Below are positions 1,684 to 12,287 of a DNA stretch of 64,000 nt, one piece after another. Numbering within the stretch: the stretch's first letter is position 1; each line of letters opens with the position of its first letter. Under the pieces are notes generated by a model. That model ran no database searches, was not told the DNA's origin, and was given only the letters and a program-made list of their open reading frames with translations. Position numbers and translations under genes: made by a program. The DNA comes from Anoxybacteroides voinovskiense (lineage in GTDB: Bacteria; Bacillota; Bacilli; Bacillales; Anoxybacillaceae), in assembly GCF_014196205.1 (NCBI RefSeq), contig NZ_JACIDE010000016.1, positions 1 to 64,000 on the forward strand. Direction: 5' to 3'.

Positions 1684-1936
1684 TATTAGATGATGAAAAC
1701 CGTTTGTTTCCATCATTTTTGTGGCAAGGAAGGAGGTTGAAGCACCGCAACACAAAGATTAAATCTAGTTGATGGATTTCTCATGAAATATTAAGCAAAT
1801 CGGAATGAATCCTACTTGATACGCGTCATTGGTTAGTGATATACACGAGGATGTAAAGATTATTTTATACGAACGTGTGGCAAAACGAATGGCTGAGTAG
1901 GCTAGTTATTTTTGCCGAAAAAGGAGTGGAGCTCAG

Positions 1937-4900
1937 ATGAAAAAGGACATGCACCGACAAGAAACAGTGCCTCGCTTTATTTTTTATGATGCGAAAGGAA
2001 GGAGGAAGATAATTTTTAAATCCGTTCTTTGCTTGGCAATTATTGTTGCCGCCGTTGTTTTTTACGTTTTCTTTCAGAGTGTTTTTGCGCCGATAAACCT
2101 TCCGTACGCAAAACTATTTCCGAATGCATATAAAAAAATCATATCGATAGACGAAAAACTTAGTTATTTGCAGCTACAGGAAGAGTTGAAAATAGAAAAG
2201 TTTAAGCATTTTCATCATCTGAACCATTGGAAAAAAAGAGGAGATGGCAGTGCGCCTAATGAAGTGTATGGGTTTTATGTAAACTGGGATGAAAATAGCA
2301 CGACTTCGTTAAAAGAGCATATTCGTTCATTAACGGTATTAGTGCCGGAATGGTACCATGTGAACACAGATTTCACGATTGTTAGCGAGATTAAACCTGA
2401 TATTATGGAATTGGCAAAGGAAAATCATGTAAAAATCATGCCGTTAATTAACAATTTTACCCAAAAAGATGCTGGACCAGACGGCACTACTATCGATCGG
2501 TTGTTGCATGCCCCTGTGGATAAACAAAAGCAATTTATTGATGATTTAGAAAAACAAATAGAGGCAAACCAATTCGCAGGTATTAATATTGACTTTGAAT
2601 CCATTCCTAAGAAAGACCGAGAGGCATTCACGAAATTTATGCAAGAGCTTGCTCATGTGTTTCATCAACACCATTTGCTCGTAACACAAGATGTGCCGGC
2701 GGATGATCGTGCCTTTGATTATCGCGCATTATCCAAAGAAGTAGATCGATTAATGGTCATGATGTATGACGAACATTATGCAGGGGGAGAGCCAGGGCCG
2801 ATTGCTTCCGCTGACTGGGTTCAACATACGCTCGATCATTTACCGATCCCTGCAGAAAAGCTCATTGTTTCTCTCGGAAACTATGGGTATGATTGGACGA
2901 CAGGTGCCAAAGCTCCAGCTACGTCCTTAACTTTTTCAGATATTATGGAGATGGCACATGATTCTAATTTAAAAATTAAATGGGATAAACTAAGCGGGAA
3001 CCCGTATGTTCAATATGAAGATGGAGAGGACAAGCATATCGTTTGGTTTTTAGATAGTGTAACTTTCTATAACGGAATGAAAATGGCGTTCGAGAATGGA
3101 ACGAAAGGATTTGCAATCTGGAGATTAGGCTCAGAAGATCCGACGGTGTGGGATCTGTTAAAGGACTGTGGAAAGATACAAAGCCATATCAGCCTGTTGC
3201 ATAAAATTCCTAGCACCGACCGAGTCAACTATTCTGGACAAGGAGAAATTTTAAGAATTACAAACGTCGGCCGAAATGGTTCAAGAGGATTTCAAGTAGA
3301 TAAAGACGGGTACCTTACCGATGAAGTGTATCAGTCTTTTCCATCATCGTACGAAGTTCAACGATACGGACAGCCGAAAGGAAAACAAGTAGTCTTAACG
3401 TTTGATGACGGGCCAGATCCTAAATATACGCCAGAAATTCTCGACATCTTAAAACAATTTGATGTAAAAGCGGACTTTTTTATCGTCGGAGAAAATGCGG
3501 AGGAGTACCCTGATATTATTAAAAGAATGTATAGCGAAGGGCATGAGGTAGGCAATCATACGTTTACGCATCCGAACATTGCCTATACGTCCCCGTTGCG
3601 TACAAAGTTAGAACTAAACACGACCCAGCGGCTTATTCAAGAAATCACTGGCCATTCTACCGTTTTGTTTCGACCACCATATGAAGCGGATGCGGAGCCT
3701 TATTTAGCGAGTGAAATATTACCGATTTTGCGGGCGCAAAAGATGAATTATATTATGGTTGGAGAAAAAGTGGACCCAGAAGACTGGACGCAGCCAGCAA
3801 CAAACGAACTAGTAAAGCGTGTGCTTACGCCTATATATAACGGGGAAGGAAACGTGATTCTTCTTCATGATGCGGGAGGCGATCGTACGCATACGGTAGA
3901 AGCGTTGCCGATGATTATTAAAGATTTGAAAGAGCATGGGTATCGCTTTGTCACCATTTCTGAGCTATTAGGGAAAAAACGTGAGGATGTAATGCCAAGT
4001 GTTTATTCCTATGATGCGTCGTGGCTGCCGTATGACCGAGCGGTTTTTTCGGGAATGGAATATTTTACAAAAATATTAACAACAATTTTTTACGTGACGA
4101 TTGGACTAGGAATTTTCCGTTTCTTATTTTTAATGTACTTTTCGTTTAAGCAAAAAAGAAGGGATACATCTCGTTCTATCACCGATTACCAGCCTTTCGT
4201 AAGTGTTGTCATAGCGGCCTATAATGAAGAAAAGGTCATTGGTAAAGCGATTCGCTCGATTTTGGCCAGTGACTATCCAGAGTTGGAAGTGATTGTTGTA
4301 GATGATGGCTCACGGGACAGTACGGCAAAAGTCGTTCAAGAAATCAGTAATGAGTACCCGAACGTTCGCTTAATCCAGAAAGAAAATGGCGGGAAATCGT
4401 CCGCGGTGAATCGAGGATTCCAAGAAGCGCGCGGGGATATCGTCGTTTCATTAGATGCGGATACGATTCTTGCATCTAATACAATTTCTTTAATGGTTCG
4501 CCATTTTGCAGATCCTCATGTCGCGGCTGTGTCGGGGAATGTGAAAGTAGGAAACCGACGAAATGTATTAACTACATGGCAACATATTGAATATATTACC
4601 GGCTTTAATTTAGAGCGGAGAGCGTTCGATGAGTTGAACTGTATTACAGTTGTGCCAGGCGCCATTGGAGCATGGCGAAAGCAGCTCGTGAAAGAAGCGG
4701 GGTATTTAAGTGAAGACACACTAGCAGAGGACACAGATCTTACTTTAACGCTTTTGCGTCAAGGGTATCGGATTGTTTATGAAGATAAAGCGTATGGCTA
4801 TACCGAATCGCCAGAAGATGTCAAAAGTCTCATTAAACAGCGATACCGCTGGTCATACGGTACGTTACAGTGCTTATGGAAACATCGAAAAGCGCTGTTT

Positions 4901-5275
4901 AATGTAAAGCATAAATCCTTAGGATTTATTGCTTTGCCAAATATGTGGATATTCCAGTTTTTTTCGCAATCCGTTTCCCCGTTTGCCGATATATTAATGG
5001 TGATTGGATTGTTTAGTAGCCATCCGTTAAAAGTGTTAGGATTTTATCTTTTATTCTTTGTCATTGACATGCTTGCATCGCTCTTTGCCTTTTGGTTGGA
5101 AAGAGAAAATCCGAAACCATTGCTTTGGTTAATTGTGCAACGGTTTGCTTATCGCCAGCTAATGACTTACGTTGTTATTAAATCTATACTTTCTGCTATT
5201 CAAGGAATAGAGGTAGGTTGGAACAAACTAAAACGACTCGGCAGTGTCGCGCAATCGCTTGGACAAAACCAATAA
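1937..5275 (+). CDS. Membrane fusion protein: GH18 + NodB deacetylase + GT2 glycosyltransferase
   Basis: An 1112-residue three-enzyme fusion. Residues about 28-48 form a membrane anchor. About 105-400 are a GH18 TIM barrel with the catalytic strand GINIDFE (Asp219, Glu221). About 480-670 are a NodB polysaccharide deacetylase with TFDDGPDP (Asp490-Asp491) and NHTFTH (His541, His545) as metal ligands. A second membrane segment lies near 710-735. About 750-1000 are a GT2 synthase domain with DDGS (Asp789), DAD (840-842), an acceptor-site ED (931-932) and QRYRW (968-972), followed by C-terminal membrane helices. Processive GT2 enzymes with QxxRW make beta-linked polymers; the deacetylase and hydrolase parts would face outside, as in the PgaB/PgaC system. 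I infer synthesis and editing of a partly deacetylated GlcNAc-type polymer. The start has an AAGGAG site ten bases upstream. Domain fusions of this kind exist in other firmicutes; the product is unknown. Confidence 0.85.
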   Translation: MKKDMHRQETVPRFIFYDAKGRRKIIFKSVLCLAIIVAAVVFYVFFQSVFAPINLPYAKLFPNAYKKIISIDEKLSYLQLQEELKIEKFKHFHHLNHWKKRGDGSAPNEVYGFYVNWDENSTTSLKEHIRSLTVLVPEWYHVNTDFTIVSEIKPDIMELAKENHVKIMPLINNFTQKDAGPDGTTIDRLLHAPVDKQKQFIDDLEKQIEANQFAGINIDFESIPKKDREAFTKFMQELAHVFHQHHLLVTQDVPADDRAFDYRALSKEVDRLMVMMYDEHYAGGEPGPIASADWVQHTLDHLPIPAEKLIVSLGNYGYDWTTGAKAPATSLTFSDIMEMAHDSNLKIKWDKLSGNPYVQYEDGEDKHIVWFLDSVTFYNGMKMAFENGTKGFAIWRLGSEDPTVWDLLKDCGKIQSHISLLHKIPSTDRVNYSGQGEILRITNVGRNGSRGFQVDKDGYLTDEVYQSFPSSYEVQRYGQPKGKQVVLTFDDGPDPKYTPEILDILKQFDVKADFFIVGENAEEYPDIIKRMYSEGHEVGNHTFTHPNIAYTSPLRTKLELNTTQRLIQEITGHSTVLFRPPYEADAEPYLASEILPILRAQKMNYIMVGEKVDPEDWTQPATNELVKRVLTPIYNGEGNVILLHDAGGDRTHTVEALPMIIKDLKEHGYRFVTISELLGKKREDVMPSVYSYDASWLPYDRAVFSGMEYFTKILTTIFYVTIGLGIFRFLFLMYFSFKQKRRDTSRSITDYQPFVSVVIAAYNEEKVIGKAIRSILASDYPELEVIVVDDGSRDSTAKVVQEISNEYPNVRLIQKENGGKSSAVNRGFQEARGDIVVSLDADTILASNTISLMVRHFADPHVAAVSGNVKVGNRRNVLTTWQHIEYITGFNLERRAFDELNCITVVPGAIGAWRKQLVKEAGYLSEDTLAEDTDLTLTLLRQGYRIVYEDKAYGYTESPEDVKSLIKQRYRWSYGTLQCLWKHRKALFNVKHKSLGFIALPNMWIFQFFSQSVSPFADILMVIGLFSSHPLKVLGFYLLFFVIDMLASLFAFWLERENPKPLLWLIVQRFAYRQLMTYVVIKSILSAIQGIEVGWNKLKRLGSVAQSLGQNQ

Positions 5276-5301
5276 AAACTAGCTTGGATGGTTCTATTCT
5301 T

Positions 5302-5338
5302 AGCTTTTCTGCCGGAATCGGCAGAAAAGCTTTTGTTT
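5302..5338 (+). terminator. Terminator made from a short form of the 247-bp repeat
   Basis: A 13-bp perfect stem (AGCTTTTCTGCCG, 5302-5314, complement 5319-5331) with a GAAT loop, then TTTGTTT. The stem and its flanks (CTATTCTTAGC before it, TTTAGCCATA after it) match the outer stem and flanks of the dispersed element at 37297-37543, but all inner hairpin arms are absent. The stretch CCAATAAAAAC of that element coincides with the stop codon of the upstream gene. Confidence 0.75.
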
Positions 5339-6040: not shown

Positions 6041-6069
6041 ATCGTTAGCACGAGAAGGTGGTGAGGGAG

Positions 6070-7326
6070 ATGAGAACGTTAGGATGGGTGCTGCTTTTCG
6101 CGCTTGTTTTTCCGTTATCGGTACGCGCAGAAGGGGTGCAAGCTACCATTGACAAAACGCCAGCTTATGGAGTAGTAAAGCTTGCTAGTGGCGTATATGA
6201 CGAATCGCTTCGCTTGGCGAAACCGCTTACGTTAGAGGGAGTTGGAAAAGTGACGATACGCTCGTGTCGTTCGCCGGTTGTGACCATCTCTAGCCATCAT
6301 GTTGTGTTGCGGAATGTGACGATCGAGCAGTGCGGCAATGCTAGTGATCGTGCAGCGCTTTATGTCACAGGGCATGATCATACGATGGAACGTGTGCATA
6401 TATTCGCCACCGAGCGTGGCATTCAGCTTGACAAGGCGCGCCGGACAACAATTGTTCATTGTGTCATTCAAGGAAAGAAAAACGGCAACGGCATTGACTT
6501 ATGGGAATCGTCGCAAAACAATATCCAAGACACAACGATTCGTCATGTAAAAGACGGGATTTACATGGAAAATAGCCACGAAAATATACTAAGCGAAAAC
6601 AACATTCGCGATGCGCGCTACGGCATTCACGTGATGTTTTCAAACGGGATTGTATTAAGAAAAAACGTGTCGGAAAAAAATATCGCGGGTGCGATGGTGA
6701 TGGGGACGAAACGGACGACGATTGAACAAAATTTGTTTCGCGAAAATAACCGCAACGTTCATTCCCAAGGGCTTCTTTTGTACGATGCGACAGAAACGGT
6801 GGTGAGAGGAAACGAAATCGTTGCGAATCGTGTCGGCATGTATGTCGAAAACGCCCGTTATAACGAACTGCTAGAAAACGATATTCGCCGCAATTTTATC
6901 GGAATGCAGTGGAATGCGTCAACGAAAAATCGCGTAGCGGACAATTCGTTTGTCGGCAACGTTCACGATGCGCAAGCTATTCATAGCACTAATAATACGA
7001 TCATCCATAACTATTGGGACGCCGCGCTGAAACTCGATGTCACAGGCAAAGGGTTTAGCGCCATCCCGTATCGCGCTGACCCATTTTTCTTAGCGCTTAC
7101 GACCAATGTGCCGGAATACCAGTTATTTTTCCAAGCGCCAAGCATGATTGTTTTGCAAAAACTGTTGCGCAGCCCAGATAAAGAAGTGCTCATCGACCAA
7201 GCACCGCGGATGAAAGAATTTGTCTTAGAGAAAAAACACGCCCAACCGACAAGCCCATTGTATATGATGAGCGTGGCGATGGCAGTAGGAAGTATTAGTT
7301 TATTAATGTTAGGGAGGAAACGATAG
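6070..7326 (+). CDS. nosD: NosD-type copper-maturation protein
   Basis: A 418-residue exported protein: signal peptide (LLFALVFPLSVRAEG) followed by a right-handed parallel beta-helix of NosD/CASH repeats (for example NNIQDTTIRHVKDGIYMENS and NRVGMYVENARYNELLENDI), then a C-terminal membrane segment (MMSVAMAVGSISLLMLG). NosD works outside the membrane with the NosF-NosY ABC transporter to mature the copper centre of nitrous-oxide reductase. I chose ATG 6070 because AAGGTGG lies eight bases upstream; earlier in-frame GTGs overlap that site. The gene leads an operon: its stop shares one base with the start of nosL. No nosZ is visible on either side. Confidence 0.85.
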   Translation: MRTLGWVLLFALVFPLSVRAEGVQATIDKTPAYGVVKLASGVYDESLRLAKPLTLEGVGKVTIRSCRSPVVTISSHHVVLRNVTIEQCGNASDRAALYVTGHDHTMERVHIFATERGIQLDKARRTTIVHCVIQGKKNGNGIDLWESSQNNIQDTTIRHVKDGIYMENSHENILSENNIRDARYGIHVMFSNGIVLRKNVSEKNIAGAMVMGTKRTTIEQNLFRENNRNVHSQGLLLYDATETVVRGNEIVANRVGMYVENARYNELLENDIRRNFIGMQWNASTKNRVADNSFVGNVHDAQAIHSTNNTIIHNYWDAALKLDVTGKGFSAIPYRADPFFLALTTNVPEYQLFFQAPSMIVLQKLLRSPDKEVLIDQAPRMKEFVLEKKHAQPTSPLYMMSVAMAVGSISLLMLGRKR

Positions 7327-7844
7327 TGAAAAGAAAAGCAGTTTTCGCCATTTTAGCAGCCGTTATTTTCGTCATCGCTGGTTGTAGCCAAAAAGCAAAG
7401 CCGGTAGCGATTGATGAAAAAAATGACAAATGCGACACGTGCCATATGGCGGTCGGAAATGACCAATTTGCGACAGAACTCATTTTAGAAAATGGTAAAG
7501 TGCTCAAGTTTGACGACATTGGCTGTATGTATAAATGGATGCACGAACATAAAAAAGAGGCAATCACCGCAACGTTTGTTCGTGATTATAAAACGAGCGA
7601 TTGGATAGAAGCAGACAAGGCAACCTATGTGTATGACAAAAACATTCGCACGCCAATGGCGTACAACGTCATTTCGTTTCAAGACGAAAAAGAGGCGAAG
7701 CAATTTATCGAAAAAAATGGCGGCACGCTTCTTACACATGATCAACTAGCTGACCATACGTGGGAACGAAATAAAGAGATGATGATGAAAATGAAAAGCG
7801 GAAAGATGAAGATGGATGAGCATAGCGACGATATGGGCAACTGA
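7326..7844 (+). CDS. nosL: NosL copper-chaperone lipoprotein
   Basis: A 172-residue lipoprotein with lipobox VIAGC (Cys20) and the NosL copper motif CDTCHM (Cys36, Cys39, His40, Met41). NosL binds Cu(I) and delivers it to the NosDFY complex. The C-terminus is rich in Met, Lys and His (MMMKMKSGKMKMDEHSDDM), a plausible extra copper-binding tail. It starts with GTG at 7326, sharing the G of the nosD stop TAG, with an AGGGAGG site upstream, so translation is probably coupled. Confidence 0.9.
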   Translation: MKRKAVFAILAAVIFVIAGCSQKAKPVAIDEKNDKCDTCHMAVGNDQFATELILENGKVLKFDDIGCMYKWMHEHKKEAITATFVRDYKTSDWIEADKATYVYDKNIRTPMAYNVISFQDEKEAKQFIEKNGGTLLTHDQLADHTWERNKEMMMKMKSGKMKMDEHSDDMGN

Positions 7845-7881
7845 GCGCCAGTTGTCCTTTTTTCTATCGGGAGGGGATATG

Positions 7882-8691
7882 ATGCGAAGTATCGCACGAA
7901 TGGAATGGCGGCTTATGATGCGGCAATATTCCTCGTATTCGTTCGTTATATTATGGACTGTGGTGCTGTCGCTACTGTTTTTCATCGCGCGGAATAATAC
8001 CGATTTTGCTGGTTATACGAACGTGACAGGGACGATTGCGAATATGATGCTATATTTATTGCCGCTGTTTATGTTAATCGCCGGTTCGTTTGCGATTGCT
8101 GGGGAGATGGAGAGTGGACAGTGGCGGCTGTTACGGACGTATCCGCTTCCGCCAGCAACGTATGTAGCCGGAAAATGGCTCGGGCAATGGCTTGGGCAGG
8201 TGATTTTGTTTACGCTTAGTTTTGGCATTAGTTTGGTGCTTAGCTTATGGAGCGGCACGGTGTTGCCGCTGAAATGGGTGGTGGCACTATATAGTTTTTC
8301 GCTATTGTTAATCGCTTTTTTTCTTATGCTCGGCTTGGCGGTTGGCTCGTTCGTTTCGACAAGGTGGCAGGCGTTGACCGTATCGGTTGGCATTTGGTTT
8401 TTATTTATTATGATTTGGCCAACGATGTTAATTGCCGTGCTAAACGTTGTACCATATCCCTTCATTGCCCCGTTATTACAAGGCTTGACGCTTCTTAATC
8501 CAGCGGAAGTATTGCGGGTGGCATTTGTCGTACAGCTAGGTGGTAGCGCTGTTTTCGGGCAAGCGTATGACCATTTGCTTTGGCTATGGCAGAAGCGGTT
8601 CGGTTTAATCTTAATGACGTATGCGGTTATGTATGGATGCATCTTATGGATGATGGCGGCACGGAAGTTAGCGAGGAGGAAAGTGAGATGA
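7882..8691 (+). CDS. nosY: NosY ABC-2 type permease
   Basis: About 269 residues with six predicted membrane segments, of the ABC-2 permease type. The first loop after TM2 carries the GEMESGQWRLLRTYP motif that is typical of NosY and gliding-motility permeases. It should pair with NosF and NosD in the membrane. Two adjacent ATGs (7879, 7882) follow a GGGAGGGG site; I prefer 7882 for spacing. Its stop overlaps the nosF start as ATGA. Confidence 0.82.
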   Translation: MRSIARMEWRLMMRQYSSYSFVILWTVVLSLLFFIARNNTDFAGYTNVTGTIANMMLYLLPLFMLIAGSFAIAGEMESGQWRLLRTYPLPPATYVAGKWLGQWLGQVILFTLSFGISLVLSLWSGTVLPLKWVVALYSFSLLLIAFFLMLGLAVGSFVSTRWQALTVSVGIWFLFIMIWPTMLIAVLNVVPYPFIAPLLQGLTLLNPAEVLRVAFVVQLGGSAVFGQAYDHLLWLWQKRFGLILMTYAVMYGCILWMMAARKLARRKVR

Positions 8692-9392
8692 CAGCGCTTG
8701 ATGTAGCAGGGGTGGCGAAAACATATAAGACGAAATATGCGCTCATGCCGGTGTCGCTTCAAGCAACTAGCGGAGAGTGCGTTGTATTATGCGGAGGAAA
8801 CGGAGCGGGAAAAAGCACGTTGCTTCATATTTTAGCAGGGGTGCTTGCCCCGACGGCTGGTACGGTGGCGCTTCATGGCGTGTCGCTACAAAAAAACCGT
8901 GAAGCATACATTTCGCAAATCGGGTATATGCCAGATGATTTCCACGCGCCACCAATGATGACTGTGCAAGAATTTTTGTCTTTTTATGCGTCTTTACGGT
9001 ACGTGTCTTCAGAAAAAATAGAAAAAACGCTTCATGACATCGGGCTGGAAAAGCAAAAAAAAGAATGGATCAAGCATTTATCGAAAGGGATGCGGCAGCG
9101 CTTATTATTCGGGCAAGCGTTACTAGGAGAGCCGAAACTATTGCTTCTTGATGAGCCGACGAACGGCCTCGATCCGTTTTGGGTCGATCGGTTTGTCGAT
9201 ATTCTGAAAGAGAGGAAGAAAAACGGGACGATTATCGTTTTCTCGACGCATATGATGGACGTAGCGGCGGAAGTAGGCGACCGCGTGCTGTTTATGAAAA
9301 ACGGCGAAATCGTCAAACAAATCGAACCAGCGGACTCTCACCGGAAAGAAGAAACCGTATTACAGCTGTTAAAATTGCACCGGCAGCTATAA
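8688..9392 (+). CDS. nosF: NosF ABC ATPase
   Basis: A 234-residue ABC ATP-binding subunit: Walker A GGNGAGKST, Q-loop in IGYMPDDFHAPP, signature LSKGMRQRL, Walker B LLLLDEPT, H-loop FSTHMMD. It powers NosY and is needed for copper-site maturation by NosD. The ATG at 8688 overlaps the nosY stop (ATGA) with GAGGAGG upstream, so it is coupled to nosY. It ends the operon at a hairpin terminator. Confidence 0.88.
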   Translation: MTALDVAGVAKTYKTKYALMPVSLQATSGECVVLCGGNGAGKSTLLHILAGVLAPTAGTVALHGVSLQKNREAYISQIGYMPDDFHAPPMMTVQEFLSFYASLRYVSSEKIEKTLHDIGLEKQKKEWIKHLSKGMRQRLLFGQALLGEPKLLLLDEPTNGLDPFWVDRFVDILKERKKNGTIIVFSTHMMDVAAEVGDRVLFMKNGEIVKQIEPADSHRKEETVLQLLKLHRQL

Positions 9393-9509: not shown

Positions 9510-9911
9510 ATGGTACTACAACATGTTGTAGAGGAGCGAGTACCGATGGACAACGTCCCTGATCGCAAGAAAAAATTCGTAAGACGTATATCTGTATCTA
9601 GTAAAAAACAAATTACGATACCAAAGGACTTTTATGATGCGCTAGGCATTGGCGATGAAGTGTTAATCGAGTTGGCCGATAATAAACTCATTATTCGCCC
9701 GATACGTGAAGATCATGTTGATTTTTCCGATCTTATTTTAAAAGATTTAATTAACGAAGGGTATACAGGCGAAGAATTGTACGAATCGTTTAAATATCGT
9801 AAATCTCAACTATCCCATGCGTTAGAAAAGCTGGTTTCCGAGGAAAGACCGAAGGCGAAAACGTATACGTTGGAAACGTTAAAGGAGCTATTCCACGAGG
9901 ATGATGAATAA
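9510..9911 (+). CDS. AbrB/SpoVT-domain antitoxin
   Basis: A 133-residue protein with an N-terminal SpoVT-AbrB swapped-hairpin DNA-binding domain (VRRISVSSKKQITIPKDFYDALGIGDEVLI, about residues 23-65) and a longer acidic C-terminal region (about 70-133) that would neutralise the partner toxin. AAAGGAGGG lies seven bases before the ATG. The stop overlaps the next gene by 11 bases, the usual arrangement of an antitoxin-first toxin-antitoxin pair that regulates itself. Confidence 0.8.
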   Translation: MVLQHVVEERVPMDNVPDRKKKFVRRISVSSKKQITIPKDFYDALGIGDEVLIELADNKLIIRPIREDHVDFSDLILKDLINEGYTGEELYESFKYRKSQLSHALEKLVSEERPKAKTYTLETLKELFHEDDE

Positions 9912-10233
9912 TCGCTTAACTATCCTTCCGAAAGCGGAAAAAGCGATTAAGAAACTAACAAAGCATCATAAAGAATTGCAAGAGAAGTTTTATACCGCTT
10001 TTCAGGAAATTCTTTTCCATCCGTTAGAGGCAGGGAAGAGAAAGACAGGGGACTTAGCGGGAGTGTACGGGTACGATATTTATCATCGAGGGATAAACTA
10101 CGAAATTGCGTATATCATTGAATACGATGAGAATGGCAATGTCATTGTCGTTATTTTAGCCGGAACGCGGGAAAATTTCTATGATGAACGTAAACGTTAT
10201 ATGAGAACGAGCAAAACAAAGCCTCGTAAATAA
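9901..10233 (+). CDS. RelE/ParE-fold toxin
   Basis: A 110-residue basic protein with the RelE/ParE pattern: an N-terminal helical part rich in Lys (PKAEKAIKKLTKHHKELQEKF), then GDLAGVYGYDIYHRGINYEIAYII and a final strand VVILAGTRENFYDE. RelE-fold toxins cleave mRNA or inhibit gyrase; which applies here cannot be told. ATGs at 9901 and 9904 both fit. It overlaps the AbrB-type antitoxin, supporting a toxin-antitoxin pair. Confidence 0.75.
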   Translation: MMNNRLTILPKAEKAIKKLTKHHKELQEKFYTAFQEILFHPLEAGKRKTGDLAGVYGYDIYHRGINYEIAYIIEYDENGNVIVVILAGTRENFYDERKRYMRTSKTKPRK

Positions 10234-10567: not shown

Positions 10568-10742
10568 AATTATTTTTATCATTTCGTTTGCTAGTTGTCA
10601 TGTAGGATACAATAAGATTAATAACAAAAATTCGGAAATCACCTACTTTTTGCAGGAGCATGGCGGACAAAAGAACGTACCGCAAAGGGGAAGGGACTAT
10701 GACTTCTTGAACGATTATGATAAAATATAAGCGGTTTCGTTC

Positions 10743-10815
10743 ACATAGGCGATGGGGTTCGCCGCAATTGCCGGAAGGCTGATGACTCCTACCAGTTGAC
10801 ACTGGTGGGGGTTTA
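10743..10815 (+). ncRNA. Fluoride riboswitch (crcB motif) with terminator
   Basis: The sequence carries the conserved blocks of the fluoride aptamer: GGCGATGG (10748-10755), GTTCGCC, and GGCTGATGACTCCTACC (10778-10794), which form the pseudoknotted fold. Immediately after, CTCCTACCAG pairs with CTGGTGGGGG ahead of GTTTATT, a terminator sharing bases with the aptamer, so fluoride binding would allow read-through. It lies about 35 bases upstream of crcB, the family's classic target. Confidence 0.93.
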
Positions 10816-10848: not shown

Positions 10849-11235
10849 TTGGTTTACGTTGTTGTAGGCATTGCTGGTATGTTAGGGGCACTGCTTCGCT
10901 ATTATGTCGGGGTGTTGTTGCCGACCGCATCGTTTTTTGGCTTTCCGCTTGGGACGTTAGTCGTTAACTTTGTCGGTTCGTTTTTGCTTGGCTGGTTTGC
11001 GACATGGTCGGCGCGTCCATCGTTTCCCCTTTGGCTGAAAACAGGAATTGCGACTGGTTTGATCGGTTCATTTACGACGTTTTCGACGTTTAGCGTCGAT
11101 TTTTTGCAACTTGTGCAACACCATGCGTGGAAAATGGCATTTCTCTATGTTTTTCTTAGTATGTTTGGTGGGTTGCTTTGTTCATGGAGCGGTTTTCGAG
11201 TCGCGAAACAGACGACACGAAAGGAGGCTTTATAA
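10849..11235 (+). CDS. crcB: Fluoride exporter CrcB/Fluc, subunit 1
   Basis: A 128-residue, four-helix membrane protein of the Fluc family with the conserved GALLRYYVG start, GTLVVNFVGSFLLG (second helix) and SFTTFSTFSVDF (phenylalanine/serine fluoride track). It forms a fluoride channel that keeps cytoplasmic fluoride low. It starts at TTG with TAGGAGGG seven bases upstream. It is directly behind a fluoride riboswitch, and its stop overlaps the second crcB by one base (TAATG). Paired crcB genes usually form heterodimers. Confidence 0.92.
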   Translation: MVYVVVGIAGMLGALLRYYVGVLLPTASFFGFPLGTLVVNFVGSFLLGWFATWSARPSFPLWLKTGIATGLIGSFTTFSTFSVDFLQLVQHHAWKMAFLYVFLSMFGGLLCSWSGFRVAKQTTRKEAL

Positions 11236-11588
11236 TGTCTGTACTATTTGTTATTAGCGGTGGTTTCCTCGGGGCGATTTGCCGTTTTGCCGTTAGCCAA
11301 TGGTTTATTCCGCGCGCCAAATCGTTTCCAATCGGCACGTTGCTTGTCAACTGGCTCGGGTCGTTTTTGTTAGGCTTGTTAGTTGGGAGCGCCCCCGCGG
11401 AAAGTTGGCAGCTTTTCCTTGGGACGGGCTTTATGGGGGCGTTTACGACGTTTTCGACGTTTAAATGGGAGAACGTGCAAATGATTGTTCGTGGCGAAAC
11501 GAAAAGCGCTATGATTTATTTAGCGTTGACGTATTGTTTCGGCATATCGTTTGCGTTTGTTGGTTATTGGCTTGGCTCACAAGTTTAA
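11235..11588 (+). CDS. crcB: Fluoride exporter CrcB/Fluc, subunit 2
   Basis: A 117-residue second Fluc subunit with GGFLGAICRFAVS, GTLLVNWLGSFLLG and AFTTFSTFKWEN. ATG 11235 shares a base with the first crcB stop, with AAGGAGG upstream, so the two are translationally coupled and share the riboswitch. The 3' end overlaps the convergent deacetylase gene by 12 bases. Confidence 0.92.
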   Translation: MSVLFVISGGFLGAICRFAVSQWFIPRAKSFPIGTLLVNWLGSFLLGLLVGSAPAESWQLFLGTGFMGAFTTFSTFKWENVQMIVRGETKSAMIYLALTYCFGISFAFVGYWLGSQV

Positions 11589-12287
11589 ATCGCGATAGTC
11601 AGGGTGAAGCTTTAATAGCTCGGAAACGGTGACGAACGTATAGCCTTTTTCTTTTAAAATCGGCAAAATTTCTTTTAACGCTTGAACGGTTTGTTTGCGG
11701 CTTCCGCTTCCGTGGTCGTGAAATAAAATAATTTGCCCTGGTTGAATATGCTGAACGACGCGGCGGACAATTTTTTGCGTCCCGGGGTTTTGCCAGTCGT
11801 ACGTATCTTGCTCTCGCGACCACATGACGACCGTGTATCCTTCGTTTGTTGCGGCCTTCATTACGCGTTGGTTGAAGTAACCGAGCGGCGGACGAAAGAG
11901 CGTTGGGCGTTTTTTCGTTAGTTCGTATAAAATCGTTTCCGTTTTTTTTATTTCGTTCGTAATCGTTTCCGTTGATTTGCCGCGGAAATCGAGATGCTTA
12001 TATGTATGGTTCGCTAGTTCATGTCCTTCTTTTATTTGCCGTTGGATAATGTCAGGATAGTTTTCCGCACGAAAGCCAACGACAAAAAATGTTGCTTTGG
12101 CGCGATGTTCTTTTAAAATGTCTAAAATTTGCGGCGTATATAGGACATCAGGTCCGTCGTCAAACGTAAGCGCGACGACTTTTTTCGTTGTCGGGACGTC
12201 CCAGACGATTTCGTTTATTTTGTTCGTTTCGTTAGCCGAAAAAACGGAGCTAATGACGATGGATAATGATAAAAAGAAAAGCAGCAT
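11577..12287 (-). CDS. Secreted polysaccharide deacetylase (NodB/CE4)
   Basis: A 236-residue exported CE4 deacetylase: signal peptide (LLFFLSLSIVISSVFSA), then LTFDDGPD (Asp43-Asp44), NHTYKH (His94, His98), RPPLGYF and a final HDHGSGSRKQTV motif with the catalytic histidine region. All metal ligands are present. It removes acetyl groups from peptidoglycan or another GlcNAc polymer; length and layout resemble sporulation/cell-wall deacetylases such as PdaB, but the target is not shown. It is divergent from the secreted protein at 12426. Confidence 0.88.
   Translation of the reverse strand: MLLFFLSLSIVISSVFSANETNKINEIVWDVPTTKKVVALTFDDGPDVLYTPQILDILKEHRAKATFFVVGFRAENYPDIIQRQIKEGHELANHTYKHLDFRGKSTETITNEIKKTETILYELTKKRPTLFRPPLGYFNQRVMKAATNEGYTVVMWSREQDTYDWQNPGTQKIVRRVVQHIQPGQIILFHDHGSGSRKQTVQALKEILPILKEKGYTFVTVSELLKLHPDYRDLNL

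Follow-up and report, generated by a model that had tools for sequence, protein, structure and literature searches.

A single gene for a GH18-CE4-GT2 protein

We analyzed a 64,000-nucleotide stretch of DNA from the heat-loving bacterium Anoxybacteroides voinovskiense (contig NZ_JACIDE010000016.1, positions 1 to 64,000), hereafter the window, and concentrated on the gene at 1937-5275, whose 1112-residue product, P0001, joins a GH18 glycoside hydrolase domain, a CE4/NodB deacetylase domain and a GT2 synthase domain. A preliminary description of this DNA had placed the three domains, with visible catalytic residues, in a single polypeptide, and the Pfam matches and the residues found in the one open reading frame (ORF) bear this out; the frame runs unbroken from an ATG start to a TAA stop. 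We consider it likely that P0001 is a self-contained synthase-dependent exopolysaccharide enzyme, a single chain that would make, deacetylate and cut a polymer resembling poly-N-acetylglucosamine (PNAG). Its features are as follows.

1937-5275, plus strand: gene for the GH18-CE4-GT2 protein P0001, 1112 residues (ORF list, Pfam, homologues)
1976-2008, plus strand: N-terminal juxtamembrane box FIFYDAKGRRK, residues 14-24 (sequence comparison)
2012-2086, plus strand: first transmembrane helix, residues about 26-50 (hydropathy, helix at about 22-56)
2264-3130, plus strand: GH18 domain, residues 110-398, predicted extracellular (Pfam)
2579-2599, plus strand: GH18 catalytic motif GINIDFE, with D219 and E221 (alignment)
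3371-3982, plus strand: CE4/NodB deacetylase domain, residues 479-682, predicted extracellular, motifs MT1-MT5 intact (Pfam, alignment)
4070-4147, plus strand: second transmembrane helix, residues 712-737 (hydropathy)
4193-4861, plus strand: GT2 synthase domain, residues 753-975, predicted cytosolic (Pfam, NCBIfam)
4958-5104, plus strand: C-terminal membrane helices, residues about 1008-1056 (hydropathy)

The Pfam GH18 model (PF00704) matches residues 110-398 at 93.8 bits against a cut-off of 29.6, and the catalytic Glu, E221, is present, which places the domain in GH18; D219, Y277, D278 and W395 are also readable. Polysacc_deac_1 (PF01522) matches residues 479-583 at 123 bits (cut-off, 23.1), and with motifs MT1-MT5 this domain belongs to CE4, its readable residues being D490, D491, H541, H545, R579, D616 and H644. 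The Pfam GT2 match spans residues 753-975 (144.7 bits) and includes DDG at 789-791, DAD at 840-842, ED at 931-932 and QRYRW at 968-972. Given the helix positions by hydropathy, the simplest predicted topology has a cytosolic N terminus, GH18 and CE4 outside, GT2 inside, and then a membrane channel region. Such a region follows the GT2 domain in processive GT2 synthases.

The solved structures nearest to the GH18 domain are of spore-lytic GH18 enzymes and go by the names YaaH, YdhD, cortical-lytic enzyme and probable chitinase, and those nearest to the CE4 domain are named chitin or peptidoglycan deacetylases. One could therefore suppose that P0001 serves the cell wall or the spore, making or editing a peptidoglycan-like or cortex-associated polymer; the GH18 domain is nearest to YaaH/SleL-type spore enzymes, the CE4 domain is nearest to PdaB-like models, and a PdaB-like gene lies in the window at 11577-12287. 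A peptidoglycan role was also weighed in 2015 by the authors who described the Streptomyces MatAB proteins (PMC4391728). We nevertheless regard this alternative as very unlikely, since the same architecture occurs in the non-spore-formers Sphingobium, Sulfitobacter, Prevotella and Deinococcus. Nor is cortex synthesis known to involve a processive GT2 synthase.

Conservation and distribution of the architecture

Homologues of P0001 share 40-96% identity with it. Ratios of nonsynonymous to synonymous substitution rates (dN/dS) for GH18, CE4 and GT2 were 0.116, 0.073 and 0.048 against Geobacillus icigianus and 0.091, 0.023 and 0.052 against a second relative, G001. Because these values are low in both comparisons, each of the three domains is under purifying selection in the window's lineage, and this, together with the conservation among homologues, marks P0001 as a real protein, far beyond chance. 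The key GT2 residues (DG, DxD, ED and QRxRW) are kept in all 45 aligned rows, and the CE4 Asp pair and metal/active-site His residues are kept in all rows except the pair L048/L049 and L119, which has GT2 only. Of the three domains, GH18 shows the lowest conservation; the window's lineage keeps all five of its readable residues.

The fusion is not peculiar to this genome, as homologues were found in the genus, family, order, class, phylum and plasmid samples. Counting matches at an E value of 1e-80 or better in family, order, class and phylum samples that overlap, we found homologues of P0001 in 5 of 41, 24 of 397, 16 of 398 and 2 of 398 genomes, respectively, one of the last two being the window's own; within the genus, three of seven genomes have a full or near-full match. 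Among the order's 24 matches, G957 has the GT2 part only and G854 has two pieces on one contig, and among the class's 16, G057 is split over two frames and G294 matches without the N-terminal part. The related-locus search of genome contigs gave three loci. A tblastn search of plasmid records with P0001 returned 38 hits, 22 of which cover at least 80% of the query; these 22 lie in alphaproteobacteria (Sphingobium, Sphingomonas, Novosphingobium, Sulfitobacter and Limimaricola), in Prevotella nigrescens and in Deinococcus. The Streptomyces and Kocuria records matched over CE4-GT2 only, the Kocuria gene being annotated as a "bifunctional polysaccharide deacetylase/glycosyltransferase family 2 protein."

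Several observations concern individual members. Four homologues (L050, 6688-10345 in G057; L046; L047; L073) are broken by frame breaks or annotated as two genes, an example being the Sulfitobacter OXR-159 homologue, with separate deacetylase and glycosyltransferase coding sequences. Of four members with an N-terminal extension that were scanned for DUF2062, one (L051, 46.9 bits) exceeds the Pfam cut-off; the match is weak in L043 and L038, and L048 has none. On Sphingobium and Sphingomonas plasmids (L057, 8007-16802; L053, 6780-16553), a VirJ/AcvB-type gene, an MprF-like gene and a two-component system lie near the fusion gene, a neighborhood that suggests a shared envelope-charge program. 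A protein of about 447 residues, with no Pfam match where scanned, adjoins the fusion gene in each of the four f27 genomes (L039, 10592-11935; equivalents in L040-L042), beside a two-component system. Finally, an acyltransferase-3 (IcaC-like) gene apparently stands beside the fusion gene in L110 (9810-10844) and L111 (9720-10853); two of the 50 neighbors scanned matched acyltransferase-3, and they were assigned to these ORFs from N-terminal sequence.

A conserved N-terminal box suggests a link to MatA

Directly before the first helix, the family carries a conserved F-x-D-x-x-G-R-R box, which reads FIFYDAKGRRK in P0001. We scored it with a 9-position matrix built from 12 members, taking the better of the scores within the ORF and just upstream of it in any frame. 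Scores over 41 rows ranged from 4.6 to 29.3 and exceeded 11 in 35; in the weakest rows (L114 and L115, 4.6; Prevotella L054, 6.9; L113, 8.3; L116, 9.8; L117, 10.6) the pattern was readable by eye. Among 395 other ORFs the top scores were 26.0, 15.8 and 12.3, the first of which we attribute to a duplicate family row (L037_08) with an identical 9-mer. A looser form of the pattern had no hits in 18,909 residues from the bodies of the first 24 proteins, and no box precedes the first helix in Escherichia coli PgaC (best score 8.8, at residue 270), PgaB, NodC or NodB.

The box was found in four layouts: fused ahead of GH18, as in P0001; fused ahead of CE4 with GH18 missing (Kocuria, 27.8); joined to GT2 only in the 458-residue L119 protein, which has neither GH18 nor CE4 (17.8); and on a separate 263-residue ORF that ends a few bases before a Streptomyces CE4-GT2 gene (22.1; outside the training set). 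The last occurs in two near-identical Streptomyces plasmid records and counts as one instance. It has no Pfam match and is MatA-like by its position and by a single hydrophobic stretch after the box. MatA itself is described as a membrane protein with no known domains, coupled to matB (PMC5972031, PMC4391728), and loss of either matA or matB abolishes PNAG in Streptomyces lividans (PMC5972031). Since matA is needed for PNAG there, the synthase probably includes the box and first helix as an indispensable part. Retention of the box in all layouts, and its presence on the separate MatA-like ORF, suggest that MatA is a detached first segment of a P0001-type synthase. Near the GT2-only gene of L119, a gene at 4633-5313 in a polysaccharide-like cluster probably encodes, from its N-terminal sequence, the one PIG-L type GlcNAc (N-acetylglucosamine) de-N-acetylase found among the neighbors scanned, which possibly replaces CE4.

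Stand-alone hydrolases often accompany fused GH18 domains that lack the catalytic Glu

We read the GH18 catalytic Glu column in 41 rows, L037, a second G. icigianus copy, having been dropped as a duplicate. The GT2 fragment L072 from Sphingomonas bisphenolicum was dropped for a wrongly chosen frame, and L049 was left out of the 43-row tree. Glu was present in 27 rows and absent from 13 (including L058 and L119, which have no GH18), and one row, L047, was unread because the gene is broken in the assembly. A stand-alone glycoside hydrolase lay within two ORFs on either side in 7 of the 13 loci without Glu, compared with 1 of the 27 with it (Fisher p 0.0006, kinship ignored). The neighbors of the loci without Glu were GH18 proteins in L048, L049, L110, L111 and L112, a GH8 protein in L117, and in L058 a GH18-like protein annotated as a chitinase that scores 22.0 bits in Pfam, below the cut-off of 29.6. 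L116, the sole Glu-bearing locus with such a neighbor (GH16), has D219N and has lost the Tyr and Trp positions. The 30 neighbors of Glu-bearing members that were scanned singly, mostly immediate ones, included no glycoside hydrolase, and all 105 included no GH18 by phmmer, a search that other hydrolase families among the remainder could escape.

Relatedness reduces these counts. L110-L112 and L116-L119 form one clade in the tree (94/95); collapsing lineages by eye gave 4 of 8 versus 0 of 10 (Fisher p 0.023), and merging that clade further gave about 3 of 6 versus 0 of 10 (p about 0.04, by hand arithmetic). The idea of a hydrolase in cis or in trans arose from L048, L049 and L058; in the later sample alone (L104-L121), 4 of 6 loci with no Glu or no GH18 had a hydrolase neighbor, versus 1 of 12 others. 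A dead or absent fused GH18 stood without a hydrolase neighbor in L044, L046, L118, L119, L056 and L059. In the last two, from the Roseobacter group (L056, 11027-13603; L059, 10970-13513), a DUF3131 gene lies directly downstream of the gene with the dead GH18; it was not counted as a hydrolase, and might be an unrecognized hydrolase of the P0001-type pathway.

These losses bear on whether the GH18 domain of P0001 is a hydrolase or a sugar-binding or chain-guiding module. The latter would fit the absence of the catalytic Glu from 11 of the 38 rows with a readable GH18, in several lineages and with GT2 untouched, as well as the comparatively low conservation of this domain. We find it improbable, because the window's lineage keeps D219, E221, Y277, D278 and W395 at a GH18 dN/dS of 0.09-0.12 and because stand-alone hydrolases lie beside dead fused GH18 domains. 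The accompaniment of Glu-less domains by such neighbors suggests instead that the pathway benefits from cutting, for which either the fused domain or a neighbor can serve, and that the intact GH18 of P0001 is a working hydrolase. In L048 and L049 the CE4 domain is dead as well (TFSDGP, with no metal His), so the predicted product there is likely fully acetylated.

Taken together, these patterns lead us to a tentative proposal, to which we give slightly less than an even chance: MatA is the N-terminal segment of P0001-type synthases in detached form, the box and first helix form an obligatory GT2-activating subunit equivalent to IcaD/PgaD, and the hydrolase is one more module that the pathway needs, provided in cis or from a neighboring gene.

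Genomic surroundings

Two further features flank the gene.

1920-1929, plus strand: Shine-Dalgarno-like sequence AAAGGAGTGG, 7 bases 5′ of the ATG (read from the sequence; a putative site)
5302-5331, plus strand: terminator-like hairpin of 13 pairs followed by a T run (hairpin scan)

The region has eight terminator-like sites against 4.1 expected in shuffles, and the hairpin at 5302-5331 is the longest. Upstream lies an amino-acid permease gene (Pfam, 199.9 bits), and downstream, from ORF reading, are a rhodanese-like lipoprotein gene on the minus strand and then a nosD/nosL/permease/ATPase-like set. With these flanking genes, the ribosome-binding-site-like sequence and the hairpin, the P0001 gene is apparently transcribed as a unit by itself. 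The earlier statement that the next genes encode no other Pga/Ica components agrees with our reading: pgaA, pgaD, icaD, icaC and icaR are absent from the flanking genes, a result that comes from reading these genes and not from a genome-wide search with PgaD, IcaD or IcaC models.

The nos-like set occupies 6058-9392 in the window, just 3′ of the fusion gene, and lies just 5′ of it in G. icigianus (L037, 3946-7417). A scrap of the ATPase gene stands alone at the matching place in the relatives G001 and G005 (L036, 12094-12219; L080, 13807-14004), and G005 also has no fusion gene, as if the block and the fusion gene vary together. Elsewhere in the window, the ORF list shows an AbrB-like/RelE-like pair at 9510-10233, probably a toxin-antitoxin module, and a fluoride riboswitch (54.3 bits) at 10739-10798 precedes two crcB-like genes at 10849-11588.

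Proposed function of P0001

The domains of P0001, their residues and order, its topology by hydropathy and its conservation come from the sequence; the sugar, the linkage, the order of events and the role of the box are what we infer. The cytosolic GT2 domain would polymerize a uridine diphosphate (UDP)-linked amino sugar, UDP-GlcNAc being the likeliest, to give a beta-linked, PNAG-like poly-GlcNAc, with beta-1,6 linkage more likely than beta-1,4. The growing chain would be threaded through the protein's own membrane helices. Outside, the tethered CE4 domain would remove acetyl groups from the emerging chain and GH18 would cut it, setting its length or releasing the polymer, and the MatA-like N-terminal box and first helix may be the membrane partner with which the synthase becomes complete.

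We favor a PNAG-like product because the best-scoring named model for the GT2 domain in NCBIfam is PgaC_IcaA (TIGR03937; 205.7 bits, versus 93.5 for NodC, TIGR04242) and because MatB, which has a like layout, gives PNAG. Several results weigh against this reading. The GT2 domain scores below half of the PgaC/IcaA cut-off of 422.3, which keeps it out of that family, and in the GT2 tree the PgaC proteins of E. coli and Acinetobacter stand on their own long branch, apart from P0001. By our reading of the flanking genes, no icaC-like or regulatory gene adjoins the P0001 gene. A chitosan-like product would also be compatible with the nearest solved CE4 and GH18 structures, whose names point to beta-1,4 substrates of the chitin or peptidoglycan kind, and an AlphaFold2 model from a 4-row alignment (mean pLDDT, 36.5) gives no structural support.

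The main competing product is a beta-1,4 GlcNAc polymer or oligomer (chitin, chitosan or chito-oligosaccharide), made by a NodC-NodB-like chain with a length-setting chitinase. The chitinase-type fold of GH18, the placement of CE4 in the chitin/peptidoglycan deacetylase group, the pairing of P0001 by tblastn with nodB-nodC in equal order on Rhizobium plasmids and a weak Pfam Chitin_synth_2 match (34.2 bits) all fit this view. We judge it unlikely, though less so than the other alternatives above: the NodC score is far from its cut-off of 550, excluding membership in that family, and lower than the PgaC/IcaA score, and MatB shows this GT2/CE4 mosaic too, yet its polymer is dispersin-sensitive and the matB mutant still stains with calcofluor (PMC5972031).

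If the reading of P0001 as a PNAG-like synthase, deacetylase and hydrolase is true, a machine normally of four or five proteins shrinks to one gene, offering a compact model for the coupling of synthesis, de-N-acetylation and cutting; it would also be attractive as a heat-stable enzyme for producing partly deacetylated poly-GlcNAc. The range of fused and reduced forms seen in nature points to roles, open to experiment, for two pieces that lacked an explanation, namely the MatA-like box and the hydrolase, and the spread across phyla suggests that poly-GlcNAc-type matrices may be commoner than pga/ica searches show.

Comparison with known systems

The GH18-CE4-GT2 string appears in a table published in 2012, in a row on Acetivibrio cellulolyticus among non-cellulosomal enzymes, with no function stated in the part consulted (PMC3413522); that protein, ZP_09465738, has the three modules in the order of P0001 and was compared by its table entry only. 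Our search of open-license PMC literature found the string in this paper alone and found no experimental study of a three-domain protein of this kind; the excerpts of PMC6171300 and PMC13390465 contain nothing on it. The architecture is thus known from databases, apparently with no experimental description in the literature searched; what is new here is the link between the box and MatA and the cis-or-trans hydrolase pattern.

In the PgaABCD system of E. coli and IcaADBC of Staphylococcus, synthase, deacetylase and, in PgaB, hydrolase activities also serve one polymer, but they are on separate proteins. In PgaB, CE4 precedes the hydrolase, whereas in P0001 GH18 comes first. The CE4 motif order differs too: E. 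coli PgaB has H55 before D114/D115 (residues named in PMC7112194), whereas P0001 has the canonical order, D490/D491 before H644, which sets it apart from the PgaB/IcaB deacetylases. The same source describes Gram-negative pgaB clades with N-terminal glycosyltransferase fusions and without pgaA/pgaD, and more Gram-positive icaB clades. Motif order, domain order, GT2 score and GT2 tree all speak against reading P0001 as a fused PgaBC. The PgaB CE4 domain is termed circularly permuted. Of the idea that one chain holds the enzymes of a surface polymer, the three enzyme domains, the membrane-spanning layout and the apparent importance of the hydrolase stand; its likening to a fusion of PgaB and PgaC finds no support. 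As a side observation, a 232-kb contig labeled "Acinetobacter phage MD-2021a" (L078) contains an entire pgaABCD operon and has the look of a mislabeled bacterial chromosome.

The rhizobial NodB-NodC pair has CE4 and GT2 in equal order, with weak tblastn pairing to P0001 (28-30% identity), but consists of separate proteins with no hydrolase and no box, and NodC lies far away in the GT2 tree. In that tree, the GH18-CE4-GT2 rows group with the Streptomyces CE4-GT2 row and a Deinococcus GT2-only row (support 84/91, not starred), and the Kocuria CE4-GT2 protein falls outside, on an open fork. The weak backbone is compatible with a single origin of the fusion as well as with more than one.

Streptomyces MatB (SCO2962; SLI_3306) is a better comparison for P0001 than PgaBC. 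It is a single chain with an extracellular CE4 and an intracellular GT2 joined by a helix (PMC5972031), and P0001 has this MatB-type layout by Pfam and hydropathy, with CE4 and GT2 in one chain linked by a transmembrane helix. As in P0001, a PgaC-like GT2 is combined with a chitin-deacetylase-like CE4, the MatB domains being nearest to PgaC and to chitin/peptidoglycan deacetylases, and the S. lividans MatB polymer is bound by the PNAG antibody F598 and removed by dispersin B (PMC5972031). MatA (SCO2963; SLI_3306a) is a membrane protein coupled to MatB, and the MatA-like ORF beside the Streptomyces CE4-GT2 gene shares the P0001 box. P0001 differs in its additional GH18 domain and in having the box fused at its N terminus, and an IcaC-like gene adjoins matAB in the papers, unlike the P0001 gene. 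Streptomyces MatAB, with its CE4-GT2 protein, is the nearest experimentally studied relative of P0001.

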